Shown piece after piece: positions 14,661-25,724 of a stretch of 36,348 nt of DNA (its first letter is position 1; the number at the start of each line of letters is the position of its first letter). The stretch covers positions 1-36,348 of the forward strand of contig NZ_LMUQ01000011.1 of the NCBI RefSeq assembly GCF_009765865.1, given 5' to 3'. This DNA comes from Acidisoma sp. L85. GTDB lineage: Bacteria; Pseudomonadota; Alphaproteobacteria; Acetobacterales; Acetobacteraceae. Made by a program: the position numbers and the translations under genes. The notes beneath the pieces are model-generated. The model made no database searches. It was not told where the DNA came from and worked only from the letters and a program-made list of their open reading frames with translations.

Positions 14661-15491
14661 CTATTTGGCGGCGCCTTGCGTGATACCGGCAATGAAATGC
14701 TTTGAGAGGACGACGTAGAGAAGCGTAATCGGCAAGGCGGCGAGTGTGAGGCCCGTAAATAGAACACCCCAGTTCGTGACAAACTCGCCCATGAAAACGG
14801 TCAGCCCTTGAGGAAGGGTCTTGAGGTTGTCAGATGAAATAAAGATCAGCGGGAAGAAAAAGTCGTTCCAGATGGGCACCGCATTCTGAATGGCCACGAT
14901 CACCATCGCCGGCCGTGCCAAAGGCAGCATAATAGAAAGCATGATCCGCAGTTCACTCGCCCGATCCATGCGGGCGGCTTCCTCAAGCTCTTTCGGCAAC
15001 GAGCGGAGAAAGCCCGTCATGATGAAAACGGCTGAAGGCAGCCCCATGGCGACATAGACGAGAACGAGGCCCGCCAGGTTGTCGACCAGATGGAGGCGGT
15101 CGAGTTCAATGAACAGAGGGATGATCGCGAGTTTCAGAGGCACAGTCATTCCGCTGATGAAAAACATCAGAAACAATCCGCTCGCCCGAAACTGGTACCG
15201 GGCGATGGCATAAGCCGCCATCGTGCCGAAAAGGAGTATCAGCAGGATCGACGCCACTGTGACGCTGAGGGAGTTGGCGAGATAGCGGACGAAATTCGTG
15301 TCAGTCCAAACAGTTGCGATATTGGTGAGCGCGAAGCTTCGCGGAAGTGAAAATGGCGATGAGAACAGCTCGACATTCGTCTTGAACGACGACGTAACCA
15401 TGACGAGGAGCGGGTAGAGCATCACGAAGGCGTTGAACAGGAGCAGGATCTGAATCCCGCTATTCTTGATCCCCTCGTGCCGATTGGACAT
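14661..15491 (-). CDS. Carbohydrate ABC transporter permease, MalG/UgpE type (276 aa)
   Basis: This is the second inner-membrane permease of a CUT1-type sugar importer (binding-protein-dependent transport family). Six membrane helices are apparent, starting ILLLFNAFVMLYPLLVMVTS. The cytoplasmic EAA loop that docks to the ATPase reads EEAARMDRASELRIMLSIML, followed by LPLARPA. The C-terminus GITQGAAK is typical. The ATG at 15491 shares its A with the TGA of the upstream permease gene, so the two are translationally coupled. It is last in the three-gene operon, and no ATPase gene follows. Confidence 0.93.
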   Translation of the reverse strand: MSNRHEGIKNSGIQILLLFNAFVMLYPLLVMVTSSFKTNVELFSSPFSLPRSFALTNIATVWTDTNFVRYLANSLSVTVASILLILLFGTMAAYAIARYQFRASGLFLMFFISGMTVPLKLAIIPLFIELDRLHLVDNLAGLVLVYVAMGLPSAVFIMTGFLRSLPKELEEAARMDRASELRIMLSIMLPLARPAMVIVAIQNAVPIWNDFFFPLIFISSDNLKTLPQGLTVFMGEFVTNWGVLFTGLTLAALPITLLYVVLSKHFIAGITQGAAK

Positions 15492-16426
15492 CAGACCTCG
15501 ATCTCACGGCGACGTAGGTAGCGCAGCGCAACCGCGGTGGTTCCGGCGACGGCGATGAACATGAGGACAGCGAGCGCGCTTCCTTGCCCAAAGTTCTGGA
15601 TGCCGCTCGTCTCGCTGCCAAATGCCGTACGGTAAAAATACAGGCCCAGAACATCCGTGGAGCCTCCAGGCGAGCCATCGACGCCTGACATGATGTAAGG
15701 AAGCTCGAACCAGTTGAAACTGCCGATGAAGGTGAGCACACAGACGATCGTCACACTCGGCGCCATTAACGGCCAGATGATTCGGGTCAGGAGCGAGAAA
15801 TCTCCTGCACCGTCTAGCCGAGCGGCCTCCAGCAACTCCTTGCCCACGCGTTGCATCCCAGCGAGCAGGACAAGGGTGGGGAAGCCGATCCAACTCCATA
15901 TATTGGCGAAGATGATGCTGCCCAGTGCCGTCGACTCATCCCCAAGCCAGGCCCGGCCGGAAATATGGACAAGTGCGAGGGCATTGTTGACGAGGCCGAA
16001 AAGCGGGTGAAGGAATAGCTTCCAAAGAAACCCGACAATGACCGCGGACAGCACCACCGGCAGGAAGATGATGACCTGGTGTATACGGTGGCCCGGAAGT
16101 GCTTTCAGTAAGGCGAAGGCGATCAGGAACGCGGTCCCGTTCTCGAACACCATCAAGGCGATAAAGACGATGATATTGTGCCACAAGGCACGATAGGTGT
16201 TGTCGCTGAAGGGATGCTCCAGAAGGACCTGCCGGAAATTAGCCAAGCCGACGAAGTGCGATGGTTTCAGGCCGTTAAATTCATAGAAGGCGTATCGAAA
16301 GGCTGAGAGGAGCGGAAAAAGCACGAACGCCGTCATCACGATGACCGCAGGCGCCAATAGCAGTCCAATCCACAACGAGCGCATTGAAACTCGGGGTAAG
16401 AACGGCCACCGGCCCCTACGCGTCAT
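15491..16426 (-). CDS. Carbohydrate ABC transporter permease, MalF/UgpA type (311 aa)
   Basis: This is the first permease of the CUT1 sugar importer. The helices begin LWIGLLLAPAVIVMTAFVLF, and the EAA loop is EAARLDGAGDFSLLTRIIWP followed by LMAP. The preferred start is ATG 16426 (MTRRGRWP), one base after the TGA of the binding-protein gene and preceded by AGGGAAAATGAG. A start 12 codons further upstream would overlap that gene. The 3' end overlaps the MalG-type gene by one base. The membrane pair would form the translocation channel for the sugar delivered by the preceding binding protein. Confidence 0.93.
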   Translation of the reverse strand: MTRRGRWPFLPRVSMRSLWIGLLLAPAVIVMTAFVLFPLLSAFRYAFYEFNGLKPSHFVGLANFRQVLLEHPFSDNTYRALWHNIIVFIALMVFENGTAFLIAFALLKALPGHRIHQVIIFLPVVLSAVIVGFLWKLFLHPLFGLVNNALALVHISGRAWLGDESTALGSIIFANIWSWIGFPTLVLLAGMQRVGKELLEAARLDGAGDFSLLTRIIWPLMAPSVTIVCVLTFIGSFNWFELPYIMSGVDGSPGGSTDVLGLYFYRTAFGSETSGIQNFGQGSALAVLMFIAVAGTTAVALRYLRRREIEV

Positions 16427-16427
16427 C

Positions 16428-17675
16428 TCATTTTCCCTGGAATGGCGTGTACCATTTTGCAACCCCGGCCGTCACGTCAGCACCAAGCTGCGCGGGGGTT
16501 ATGCTGCCAGCCATCATCTTGGTGATGTTGGTCTGTAAAAGTTCGGACCCCGTCGGGCTCTGGAACCTGAAGTAGACGAGGTCGATTTGCGGCATGGCCG
16601 TGGCGTTCAACGCGGCCACTTTAGCCAGGAGAGGATCACTGATCGTCACGCCCTTGATGGGTGAGATATCCCCTAGCAGCGAAACCAACTTATCTCCGAA
16701 GGCGGGCGTGCCCATGTAATTCACCAATGTCAAAGCGGCAGCCTTTTGCGGCGACGCGGCGTTGACGGCATAGCCGCCGTCATAGAACTTGGTCACGTAA
16801 CCCGGGTCGCCGGCTTTAGGCGCGGGGGGCGCTATAAAATCCATGTTGAGCTGTGGGTTCTGAGTCTTGAAGTCGGCAATGTCGAAGCTGCCATCCGCGA
16901 GCATGGCGGCGCGGCCACTTAAAAAGAGCTGTCCCGAGGTCTCGTCATCCACGCCCTCGTAGCCGTCCGGCATATAGGAACGCAGCTCGAGGAGCTTGCT
17001 GAGAGCCGCGATATAGCGGGGGTCCTTGAAGGTCGTCTTGCCGGTCGTCAGATCATGCACGAAGTCCGGCCCAAGAAACGGATTTGTGAAGACCGCCACG
17101 AACATCTCGTTGAACCAGCTGGTTCCCAGGCCATTGGCCAGGGGCGTGATCCGCTTTTCCTTAAGCGCCTTGCTCACTGTCAGCAACTCGTCCCAAGTCT
17201 TTGGCGGCTGCAAACCGGCCTTGGCGAAAACATCCTTGTTGATGAGGAGACCGAGGGTCTGGGAGGCGAATGGCATCGCATAGACCTGACCATCGGCGCG
17301 ATAGCTGCCGGACAGCAGCGCGTCGGACGGAAGATTGCCGAGAGACGGCACCGTGGTCTTGTCGAGCTTGAGGAAGTAGCCGGCCTTGATGAATTGTTCG
17401 AGCCAGCCATAGGCATGGACATGGATGACATCGCCGCCTCGGCCGCCGGCAAGGGCGGTGGAGACGATGGTGGGATAGCTCTCGTCTGGAAAAGCCTCGA
17501 ACTTCACCGTTATATCAGGGTGGAGTTTGGTGAAATCCTTGAATATCTCGGTATAAGCGGCCCTATCTTCCTGACGCCAGGTCCAGAACGAAATCGTGGT
17601 CGCTCGCGCCGCCCCTGCGGCGAAACCCCAGATCAGTGTTGCCCCTAGGATGGCCAATCCTGCAGTCTTTTTCAT
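16428..17675 (-). CDS. Extracellular sugar-binding protein of ABC transporter (415 aa)
   Basis: This is the periplasmic solute-binding protein of family 1 (MalE/UgpB-like). ATG 17675 has GGAGG 6 nt upstream and starts a signal peptide (MKKTAGLAILGATLIWGFAA, cleavage after ARA). The mature protein opens TTISFWTWRQEDRAAY and contains the family pattern GGDVIHVHAYGWLEQFIKAG, and later LFLSGRAAMLADGSFDIADF. It is the first gene of the minus-strand operon with the two permeases. The divergent promoter region shared with the kinase contains a candidate ROK operator. Sugar specificity is not visible; the linked kinase and SIS protein point to an amino sugar (inference). Confidence 0.93.
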   Translation of the reverse strand: MKKTAGLAILGATLIWGFAAGAARATTISFWTWRQEDRAAYTEIFKDFTKLHPDITVKFEAFPDESYPTIVSTALAGGRGGDVIHVHAYGWLEQFIKAGYFLKLDKTTVPSLGNLPSDALLSGSYRADGQVYAMPFASQTLGLLINKDVFAKAGLQPPKTWDELLTVSKALKEKRITPLANGLGTSWFNEMFVAVFTNPFLGPDFVHDLTTGKTTFKDPRYIAALSKLLELRSYMPDGYEGVDDETSGQLFLSGRAAMLADGSFDIADFKTQNPQLNMDFIAPPAPKAGDPGYVTKFYDGGYAVNAASPQKAAALTLVNYMGTPAFGDKLVSLLGDISPIKGVTISDPLLAKVAALNATAMPQIDLVYFRFQSPTGSELLQTNITKMMAGSITPAQLGADVTAGVAKWYTPFQGK

Positions 17676-17748
17676 TGCCGCCTCCGAGATGTTCGAGACT
17701 TGAAGCACGATCAAATCATATCCCTTGCCAAGATTCCATAGAGTTCGT

Positions 17749-22810: not shown

Positions 22811-23822
22811 TTAAGCTTGAACGGCGAGCTTTTGGTTCGGCGGATTAATCCAGACGGCGGTCGGTTTTCTCGGCGATTGGGGCGGCTTGTTGACGAAGCG
22901 GTTGGGATTGGCGTGGAAGGCCTGGTCGAGGATTTTCTGACGGGCGGTGTGTATTTCGTCTGCCTTCCCATAATGGACCTGATCAGGCGTCATGATGCCG
23001 ATGCCGAGATGATGGTGGTCCTTATTATACCAGTCAAAGAAGGCGCGGCAGAAAGTTTTGGCGTCCTGGATGCAGCCGAACCGTTTGGGGAACTGGGGTT
23101 GATACTTGAGGGTCTTGAAGCAGCTTTCCGAGAAGGGATTGTCGTTGGAGGTGTGAGGCCGGCTGTGAGATTTGGTAACGCCCAGATCGGCGAGCAGCAG
23201 GGCAGTCGTTTTGGCCTTCATAGATGGACCGCGATCGGCATGCAGGGTGAGTTGGCCGGGCGCAACGTCATACTTGGCGGCGGCATCCTCGAACAGTGGC
23301 TTGAAGAGAGAGGCGCTCTCAGTGTCGGCGACGCACCAGCCGACAACCCTCCGGCTGAAGATGTCGACAATCACATAGAGATAGAAATAGGTCCATTTAG
23401 CAGGGCCCATCAGCTTGCTAATATCCCAGGACCACACTTGGTTTGGGCCTTCGGCGATGAGTTCAGGCTTGGCGTAAACGGGATGGCGCAGCAGACGGCG
23501 GCGCTCCTTCACGTCGCCATGTCGGTGGAGGATCCGGTACATGGTGCGGATCGAGCAGTGATAGAGGCCCTCGTCGAGCAGGCTGGCGTAGATCTCGGCC
23601 GGGGCCTGATCGACGAACCGCGGCTCACGCAGCAGGTCGATGATGCCTTGGCGTTCATCCGCTTCCAGCGCCCGGGCAGGCTTGGGTCGGGGACGAGCTG
23701 CCGCTGGCGGCTGTGTCTACCTTGGCCCGGCGGCGGTGGAAGCTAGCGCGGGATAGCCCCAGCGCTGCGCAGACGGCGGCGATCACCCCTCGCTCAGGCG
23801 CCAGAGCGGCTACGGCATCCAT
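22811..23822 (-). pseudogene. IS3-family transposase ORFB, frameshifted
   Basis: ATG 23822 (AGGAG 5 nt upstream) begins MDAVAALAPERGVIAAVCAA, then LGLSRASFHRRRAK. A one-base change near 23722 shifts the frame; the rest reads RPRPKPARALEADERQG and runs to the stop at 22811. The integrase domain (rve) contains Asp in VWSWDISKLMG, Asp in LTLHADRGPSM and Glu in NDNPFSESCFKTLKYQP, the IS3 DDE triad. A leading HTH_21 segment is DEGLYHCSIRTMYRILHRHG. Its start overlaps the ORFA stop by one base (TGATG). Confidence 0.82.
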
Positions 23823-23960
23823 CAGGACTCCTCGTCGCTGACGATCGGCAGACCCAGAAGCGAAGCCACTTTTATGGGATGGCCCGCCCCTTATCTCTCC
23901 AATACCGCGAAGTTGGAGCGCTAAGCTGGCAAGGCAACCGGAGAAACAGGAGCGGGGCTG

Positions 23961-24990
23961 ATGGAGATCGCAGTATTAGGTATCGACCTGGGCAAGAACA
24001 GCTGCAGTGTCGTGGGGCTGGATACAACGGGCCGTGTTGTCCTGAAGCGTCGCCTCCATCGCGATGGCGTCGTCAAGCTTGCTGGGGGCCTACCTAGCTG
24101 CGTGATGGCGATGGAGGCCTGCTGTGGTGCGCACCATCTTGGCCGGATACTGCGCGATCACGGACACGATGTTCGGCTGATGTCGCCGGAATATGTCCGG
24201 CCCTACGTAAAGGCCCAGAAGAATGATGACCGGGATGCCGAGGCAATCGCCGAAGCGGCAACGCGGCCGACCATGCAGTTCGTGGAGCTGAAGAGTGAGA
24301 CACAGCTCGACATGCAGAGCCTGCACCGTGCCCGCGACCGGCTGATCGGCGAGAGGACGGCCCTGATCAACCAGCTGCGCGCCATCCTGCTGGAGCGTGG
24401 CATCATCATGCCACAAGGACGGCGAAAGCTGGAACTACACCTCGATACGCGGCTTGCTGGAGAAACCGTTGCATTGAGCACAAGGACCCGCCTGCTGGTT
24501 GACGACCTGCGCCTCGAGTGGCGCGAACTGGACCGCCGAATCGAGGTCTTTGACGCCGAGTTCGCAGCGCAGGCGCGCACCGACGAGACCGCCCGATTGT
24601 TGACCACGATCCCAGGTATTGGCCCCTTGAACGCAACGGCGCTGGCGGCCGCAATCGGCAACGCCCAGAACTTTCCAACGTGGACGCGACCTGGCAGCCT
24701 GGCTGGGGCTGGTGCCGAAGCAGATGACAACCGGCGGCAAGCCAAAGCTGTTGGGCATCAACAAGCGAGGCAACGGATACTTGCGCAAGATGCTGATCCA
24801 CGGGGCGCGAGCGGCCTTGCCGCCACTGTCCACGGGTGAGACGCCGATGGGCGACTGGTTGCGCGGTCTGCTCGCACGAGCGCATGTGAACACCGTGGTG
24901 GTCGCGCTGGCCGCCAAGCTGGCAAGGATCATCTGCGCAGTGCTGCGTAGCGGGCGGAAGTTCGAGCTTACGACTGCAACGGTATCATAA
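23961..24990 (+). pseudogene. IS110-family transposase (DEDD + Tnp_20), one frameshift
   Basis: ATG 23961 begins MEIAVLGIDLGKNSCSVVGL. The N-terminal RuvC-like DEDD residues are Asp9 (GIDLGK), Glu52 (AMEACCG), Asp89 and Asp92 (KNDDRDAEAIAEA). The C-terminal Tnp_20 domain starts LLTTIPGIGPLNATALAAAI. A one-base gain (or two-base loss) near 24685 shifts the frame: the expected RDLAAWLGLVPKQ appears in the next frame, which continues MTTGGKPKLLGINKRGNGYL to the stop at 24990. The conserved HxxR-type C-terminal region is thus separated from the DEDD domain and the protein is probably inactive. Confidence 0.85.
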
Positions 24991-24996
24991 CCAATA

Positions 24997-25230
24997 GAAT
25001 TGGCCAGCCGCGCTCATCCGGCGCGGACGGCTGATGGGGTCTGCGGGTGGTAAATGCGAGATGGCCTGACAGTCGATCGGCGTTCTGGAAACCTGGCCAA
25101 AAAAATGGCATTCGTCGCCGCCACTTTTATGAGGACCAGGACGTGCGGATCTCCATCTTGGCCGGGACTTGTCCCAAGGCCGGATACGTTGGCGTAGACT
25201 GACCAGATCGGATCGCAGAAATCGCTTGCA
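24997..25230 (+). ncRNA. Candidate bridge (guide) RNA of the IS110/IS1111 element
   Basis: The 3' non-coding region is rich in paired segments. A 5' hairpin has CCGCGC (25008-25013) paired with GCGCGG (25021-25026). A loop is closed by CCTGG (25092-25096) and CCAGG (25136-25140), with an inner TGGC/GCCA stem. A further hairpin has GGCCGGGA (25160-25167) paired with TCCC and GGCC (25172-25181, two-base bulge). The CCTGG/CCAGG loop carries GCCACTTTT (25120-25128), identical to the left insertion flank (23865-23873), and CCAAAAAA (25097-25104), complementary to the right flank TTTTTTGG (25249-25256). IS110-family elements are known to encode such bispecific bridge RNAs; in the IS1111 group they lie 3' of the transposase. 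Exact ends are inferred. Confidence 0.6.
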
Positions 25231-25724
25231 GACGGGGCGGGCCATACGTTTTTTGGATGTCGATGACCTGCCTCGGCACGACGGAGCTGGAGCGTGAGAC
25301 GCTTATTGTCGCGCACCAATTGGGCGTGTTCAACCACCACGGGATCGATCGGCGCGCATCTGGGGCCGCGCTTGACGGCCTTCAAGGCTTCATAGGCGCC
25401 AGCGTCACGTTGGCGGCGCCAGTCGGTCAGCGCCGACGAATAAAGCCCCTCGCGTCTCAAAATCCCGCCGGCGCCCCCCGGCCCCACGCGGTCGATCTCA
25501 CGGAGAATTCTGAGCTTGTCGGCAGCTGTGAACGTGCGCCGACGCGGACGGTCCTCAAGTTCGGGCGACGCTGCCGATGGCGCTGAAACCAGCGTCGGCC
25601 TAGGGCCATCCTCGTTTTCAGCGCCATCGGCAGCAAAGGGCTTTTCGGATGTCGTGCGGGGCATGACCATGTCGATGTTTCACCTGCGCCCTCAAGGCTA
25701 AACTTCCCGGACGTCAATGTCTCA

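Follow-up and report, generated by a model that had tools for sequence, protein, structure and literature searches.

The DNA analysed here, referred to as the window, is a stretch of 36,348 nucleotides from Acidisoma sp. L85 (contig NZ_LMUQ01000011.1), in which one insertion sequence lies inside another. The locus raises the question of what the non-coding region downstream of the inner transposase gene encodes, and whether it accounts for the place at which the element is found. The best explanation of the whole, in which we place high confidence, is that this region encodes the bridge (seek) RNA of an IS1111-group element, as put forward in a preliminary description of the locus. The explanation draws on the anatomy of the element, an empty site taken from host relatives, the correspondence between guides and flanks, a covarying fold and the frame relation in uninterrupted hosts. 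The element itself consists of the following features.

23872..25248, plus strand: IS1111-group insertion sequence of 1377 bp, with ends kept in relatives and placed by empty-site comparison
23872..23878, plus strand: left end extension TTATGGG, 7 bp, of which the first two bases are the TT core
23879..23890, plus strand: left sub-terminal inverted repeat ATGGCCCGCCCC
23961..24990, plus strand: DEDD transposase gene, frame disrupted near 24667-24674 (Pfam; alignment to an intact 342-aa relative)
25234..25245, plus strand: right sub-terminal inverted repeat GGGGCGGGCCAT
25246..25248, plus strand: right end extension ACG, 3 bp

The sub-terminal inverted repeats match perfectly at 12 of 12 bp, within the 11-13 bp of IS1111 elements. 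The terminal extensions, TTATGGG and ACG, are delimited by an empty site with eight T residues in 9 of 11 host relatives, and they fit the extensions of 7 bp on the left and 3 bp on the right published for IS1111 (PMC11187229). The transposase contains the Pfam domains DEDD_Tnp_IS110 (2.8e-20) and Transposase_20 (4.4e-06), as in the IS1111 group. Two successive frames, 23961-24674 and then 24667-24990, are needed in turn for the alignment to the intact 342-aa relative, so the gene is frame-disrupted near 24667-24674 and no unbroken transposase gene is present in the window copy. The C-terminal stretch is mostly in the second frame, which contains the IS1111 C-terminal motif GL-P----S/TG as GLVPKQMTTG. 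A relative on a Lichenicola plasmid (L055) has an unbroken transposase CDS of 1029 nt. The non-coding region downstream of the transposase gene, typical of IS1111, is 244 bp long when counted from the gene end projected from L005, L057 and L089 to the right repeat. Because its transposase gene is disrupted, the window copy is probably immobile in cis, and it may move only with help in trans. The RNA region of this copy looks intact despite the disrupted gene.

The element is the only full-length match within its own genome, and three further short matches are located on two other contigs. Near a contig end of the same genome (G000:C20:5603-5986; L002, L003, L180, L222) lies another IS1111 relative, which is divergent and partial and has an identical left end. 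Elsewhere in the window, positions 14661-17714 contain ordinary ABC transport genes for two permeases and one solute-binding protein.

The insertion site and the interrupted host are described by four features.

22811..23871 (approximate), minus strand: orfB side of the interrupted IS3-type element (rve and rve_3 domains; DNA relatives)
23865..23871, plus strand: left half of the target, GCCACTT (sequence; empty-site comparison)
25249..25256, plus strand: core TT and right half of the target, TTTTTTGG (sequence; empty-site comparison)
25249..25670 (approximate), minus strand: orfA side of the interrupted IS3-type element (DNA match to hosts including the annotated ISAzs23)

The proposed insertion into an IS3 element is borne out by the rve and rve_3 domains in orfB and by the uninterrupted DNA relatives, on which the IS3 identity of the host is based; its orfA side gave no Pfam hit. 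In the right part of the host, a 65-bp stretch (25570-25634) matches itself on the opposite strand with 82% identity and forms an imperfect palindrome. Uninterrupted host relatives were drawn from family members and plasmids and aligned with the joined flanks of the window. A search of the left flank against plasmids gave no match. Eleven host loci span the site, of which nine have eight T residues, L119 has seven and L103 has nine, and the closest uninterrupted relative, L090, reads GAC-T8-GG. Since four T residues at the left junction and six at the right exceed these eight by two, two T residues come from the element, which gives the core TT and the circle junction ACG-TT-ATGGG. The same comparison reveals no target bases duplicated at insertion. 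We infer RNA expression, protein binding and the chemistry of the reaction, in which the element would excise as a circle with this junction and the circle would integrate at TT without duplicating the target.

IS3 elements use -1 frameshifting at A-runs. The target in the window, GCCAC-T8-GG, corresponds to an A8G run in the orfA/orfB overlap of the IS3-type element, which was entered antisense. In four uninterrupted IS3 hosts (L091, L104, L106, L120), orfA comprises 160-171 codons and runs on for 53-65 nt past the A8 run, where the long orfB, displaced by -1, is already open; the relation is clear, with a long open orfB, in these four of the 10 hosts laid out, and the second frame of the others is shorter or unclear. 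In L225 and L226, two uninterrupted relatives of the host of L010, the site reads CTC AAA AAA AGC and the -1 frame stays open for 339 codons. A run of seven to eight A residues inside the overlap, with orfB in the -1 frame, is found in the four hosts above and in L225 and L226. L120 contains a single annotated IS3-like transposase CDS of 1484 nt, and L225 and L226 contain IS3 CDSs of 1352 nt. Both lengths leave a remainder of 2 when divided by 3, as a product joined by a -1 shift would. Frames, motifs and annotated lengths thus suggest that the window target is the putative -1 frameshift site of the IS3 element.

The RNA region contains the following features, all on the plus strand.

About 25053..25204, plus strand: predicted core of the bridge/seek RNA in the consensus fold; the extent is that of the core and not of transcript ends (RNA alignment and consensus fold)
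25078..25088, plus strand: 5' strand of a covarying helix below the target loop, with its partner at 25136-25147 (consensus fold)
25092..25094, plus strand: CCU, closing the loop with AGG at 25132-25134 (consensus fold)
25097..25105, plus strand: right-target guide CCAAAAAAA, complement of the top strand of the right target (empty-site comparison; guide-flank test)
25106..25120, plus strand: small hairpin between the two guide arms (consensus fold)
25121..25128, plus strand: left-target guide CCACTTTT, identical to the top strand, which would pair with the bottom strand (empty-site comparison; guide-flank test)
25129..25131, plus strand: ATG directly 3' of the guide core, identical to the left end of the element; candidate handshake or junction pairing (loop parses; RNA alignment)
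25136..25147, plus strand: 3' strand of the covarying helix (consensus fold)
25184..25190, plus strand: ATACGTT, identical to the right end plus core at 25244-25250; candidate donor guide (sequence; RNA alignment)

The 12-mer GCCACTTTTATG is present in the loop at 25120-25131 and at the left junction at 23865-23876, as first described, and at no other place in the window with one mismatch or fewer. It is far beyond chance, with an expectation of 0.05 and with two places in none of 100 shuffles. Its match to the junction stands, and its reading as a left guide of 12 nt does not: GCCACTT is target, the TT that follows it is the shared core, and the final ATG belongs to the element. Base 25120, at its other end, pairs within the small hairpin in the consensus fold. 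The 8-nt right arm, CCAAAAAA, is also found where it was reported, at 25097-25104, with its complement at 25249-25256. This match alone is within chance (expected 0.68; two places in 10 of 100 shuffles), and the window sequence taken singly folds no better than its shuffles (z -0.47). Both observations favour the explanation that the loop matches arose by chance or as a captured copy of the flank, and that the RNA is structural or not made. However, the 8-mer match sits at the predicted place and its pattern recurs in relatives, and the arms of 49 elements track their flanks, the fold covaries, and single RNAs have repeated sites within one genome, as described below, which makes an origin by chance or capture extremely improbable.

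The guide-flank test of the bridge RNA started from 51 elements with an ACG right end, including that of the window, of which 50 could be parsed and 49 distinct sites were scored. L077 gave no parse, L133 had the same site key as another element, and L124 was kept with a mis-parsed right arm. Automatic right-arm parses were wrong for several elements and were replaced before scoring. Loci for which both ends were not found (e.g. L026, L027, L042) and copies with the same flanks (e.g. L014, L034) are absent from all counts. All 49 elements were parsed with the complement of the top strand 5' of the bottom-strand match. On average, 5.00 of 7 left-arm positions agree with the element's own left flank, against 2.63 for swapped flanks, and 6.65 of 8 right-arm positions with its own right flank, against 4.90, and none of 20,000 permutations reached the observed score for either arm. 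In the 29 elements of group A, both arms discriminate (0 of 20,000 permutations). In the 20 elements of group B, which have C-rich left flanks, discrimination by the right arm is weak (61 of 20,000). The left arm of this group does not discriminate (score reached by 10,258 of 20,000 permutations), because nearly all of these left arms are C-rich. Own flanks ranked first in only 25 of the 49 elements, and arms fit poorly in L013, L024, L029, L038 and L136 of the scored set. Judged by eye and not fitted, the positions around the core that change with the site number about 4-7 in each arm. The loops of the homologues differ by site and match their own flanks, and are not the same everywhere regardless of flank. 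Together with the covarying fold, this supports the identification of a bridge RNA that pairs with opposite strands of its target, and the window copy's own RNA presumably directed its insertion into the IS3-type element.

Two element types, with two RNAs and two sets of sites, coexist in a single genome (G232), where the left-end pattern occurs 15 times and nine distinct complete elements were parsed. Seven of these share a first RNA and are located at TGTGA|TT (6 of 7) or TGTAA|TT (one), and two share a second RNA, both at GAATT|TT. We also inspected sixteen distant relatives, with 41-57% protein identity over the best segment, without statistical control. The junction dinucleotide is TG or CG on both sides in most of them, and the sides differ in L040, L041 and L163. 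A good fit of both arms is seen in L060 and L040 and of one arm in L088, L162 and L163, and L155 and L169 have arms without a clear fit. Some distant subfamilies with a TG or CG core keep the layout of the RNA.

The ATG that follows the left guide and the left end of the element both hardly vary within the clade, and in distant subfamilies mostly only A or AT is kept after the core. The columns of ATACGTT (25184-25190) are invariant or nearly so across 42 aligned RNAs. The conserved ATG at the end of the 12-nt match, being the left end of the element, would fit arms that recognise the element's own ends, i.e. the donor, rather than the target. We regard this as very unlikely, since what varies in the two arms goes with the external flanks while the ends are nearly constant, and elements with the same ends at different flanks have differing arms.

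For the fold of the target-guiding RNA, 42 of the 49 stretches prepared were aligned. L011, L024, L056, L126, L131, L133 and L141 were excluded as near-identical or as redundant or, for L024, because of a wrong start, and L125, L132 and L136 were unparsed for this alignment. The named structure has 26 pairs, and 97.5% of its 1092 cells are paired. Both-side changes occur in 11 of the 26 pairs (87 cells), a count equalled in none of 500 shuffles; this control is generous, since the sequences are relatives of one another and the counts were made on the very alignment that gave the fold. Pairing falls to 34-43% when the partner strand is slid. The 11-bp helix at 25078-25088/25136-25147 is paired in 96.1% of cells, with both-side changes in 7 of its 11 pairs, and CCU 25092-25094 with AGG 25132-25134 in 99.2%. 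The region thus has a conserved, covarying fold in the 42 RNAs. The closing of the loop by CCTGG/CCAGG, as originally described, was wrong in detail: that stem is paired in 71.0% of cells over the same sequences, and it also beats its own shuffles on some measures. An Rfam search of the window at the gathering threshold gave no match.

In the window, the right guide (25097-25105) precedes the left guide (25121-25128), which is the IS1111 order; the suggestion that a right-guide-first order is informative about this group agrees with the published rules. The arrangement of IS110 proper (IS621-like), with the RNA upstream of the transposase gene and the bottom-strand match first, is not found, as the RNA is downstream and its order is opposite. 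Both the IS1111 seekRNA itself and its arm order, overlap, programmability and natural re-targeting were established by Siddiquee et al. 2024 (PMC11187229). According to the predictions of Durrant et al. 2024 (PMC11208160), 93.0% of IS1111 elements have a bridge RNA, and Hiraizumi et al. 2024 (PMC11208158) described handshake guides. The window element shares with ISEc11, ISKpn4, ISPst6 and ISPa11 (PMC11187229) the downstream non-coding region, the sub-terminal repeats, the 7- and 3-bp extensions, the top-strand complement before the bottom-strand match, the overlapping matches and natural re-targeting. It differs from these four in its guide and target, a slippery-type stretch of IS3, and in that its transposase gene is frame-disrupted. 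Pairing of the loop with opposite strands of the left and right target around a shared core dinucleotide is common to the IS621 bridge RNA of the IS110 group (PMC11208160, PMC11208158), whereas IS110 RNAs are mostly located upstream of the transposase gene with a reversed arm order. The handshake positions 81-82 of the IS621 target loop are on the right-guide side (PMC11208158), whereas the candidate bases in the window would follow the left guide. ISEc21, of the IS110 group, is likewise an RNA-guided element that inserts into IS3 elements, but it targets the codons around the second catalytic D, and not the orfA/orfB overlap (PMC11187229). The window element belongs to a published kind, of which the arm order, programmability and RNA class have been known since 2024, and what is added here is a validated set of guides and sites and the habit of inserting into frameshift windows. 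The titles and abstract openings retrieved for IS110, IS1111 or bridge RNA in combination with frameshifting make no mention of the latter, which does not imply its absence from print.

The flanks of 52 distinct elements were searched by tblastn with seed transposase halves, after one extra L044 row with a false left end had been dropped. Both halves of one family were identified on the antisense strand in 28 of the 52 (14 IS5, 7 IS3, 7 IS630), one half only in 9 and neither in 15; these matches are partly self-matches, since the seeds came from the same loci, and Pfam serves as the independent check. L017, one of the 15, lies in sense orientation within an IS3 element, at a T6G run, and L126, another of them, has a DDE_Tnp_1 stretch on its left. 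Both flanks are transposase halves of IS3, IS630 or IS5 in 29 of the 52 (28 antisense, one sense), with one half in 9 and neither in 14, so the splitting of transposase genes is common and not universal. Among 30 loci searched with Pfam on both sides, 13 have both halves (L007, L008, L010, L011, L017, L019, L022, L030, L044, L055, L074, L129, L136), with one side of L011 below the cut-off and only an rve fragment in L136. The host of L019 has no near match on plasmids. The left flank of L031 is of the IS5-type DDE_Tnp_1, and its right flank matches an IS630-type seed by tblastn without a Pfam hit. Other neighbours are a cation-efflux gene (L013), a Mutator-type transposase (L070), a Fic-family stretch (L135) and a sigma-54 activator (L076). 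In the 28 antisense cases, the junction is placed where both frames are open, and the frame of orfB differs from that of orfA by -1 in 17 and by +1 in 6 and equals it in 5, so hosts that are decayed or unsplit, or whose T-runs were miscounted, are among them. For IS5, one host (L224) has a CDS of 782 nt with TAAAGGGGG at the site, and another (L227) has two overlapping ORFs in a -1 relation by coordinates. The A-run/G-run of IS5 may thus be a slippery site; the frame test of L224 does not favour a -1 reading, as the -1 frame stops at once at the motif and the +1 frame continues for 61 codons without a stop.

The insertion into frameshift windows could be a by-product: T-runs may be scarce in these GC-rich genomes except at slippery sites and terminators, in which case any guide with a preference for a T-rich core would land there. 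Consistently, L013 is located near the cation-efflux gene at a T-run, and of two identical elements with one T-run RNA, L074 is in an IS3 element and L131 in an ABC-transporter gene. However, IS5 hosts are entered at a short A-run followed by a G-run, with a differently composed guide, and the host type changes 17 times over four labels, 'none' included, along a tree of the 52 transposase genes. We consider the by-product possible but rather doubtful, and this applies to the target habit only.

We lean instead towards the view that this clade is a guild of hyperparasites, with guides adapted, and repeatedly readapted, to signals for translational frameshifting in other insertion sequences. If so, these signals would be the A6-A8 slippery runs of IS3 and IS630 and the A-run/G-run of IS5, a motif repeated across genomes and species and common to unrelated families, which would be conserved because the host insertion sequence needs it. 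An insertion at the motif would disable the fusion transposase of the host without harm to the cell. Since an identical A7G run is present in two unrelated transposon families, a single guide can serve both: L010 and L011, from two species, do not differ over 1340 bases, and their hosts, an IS3 and an IS630 element, respectively, were both entered at A7G. A class of elements used for programmable DNA insertion gains one well-documented natural member, together with some 50 relatives and the sites they occupy. The less expected part is that a conserved translational signal of other transposons can be a widespread landing site for an RNA-guided element.
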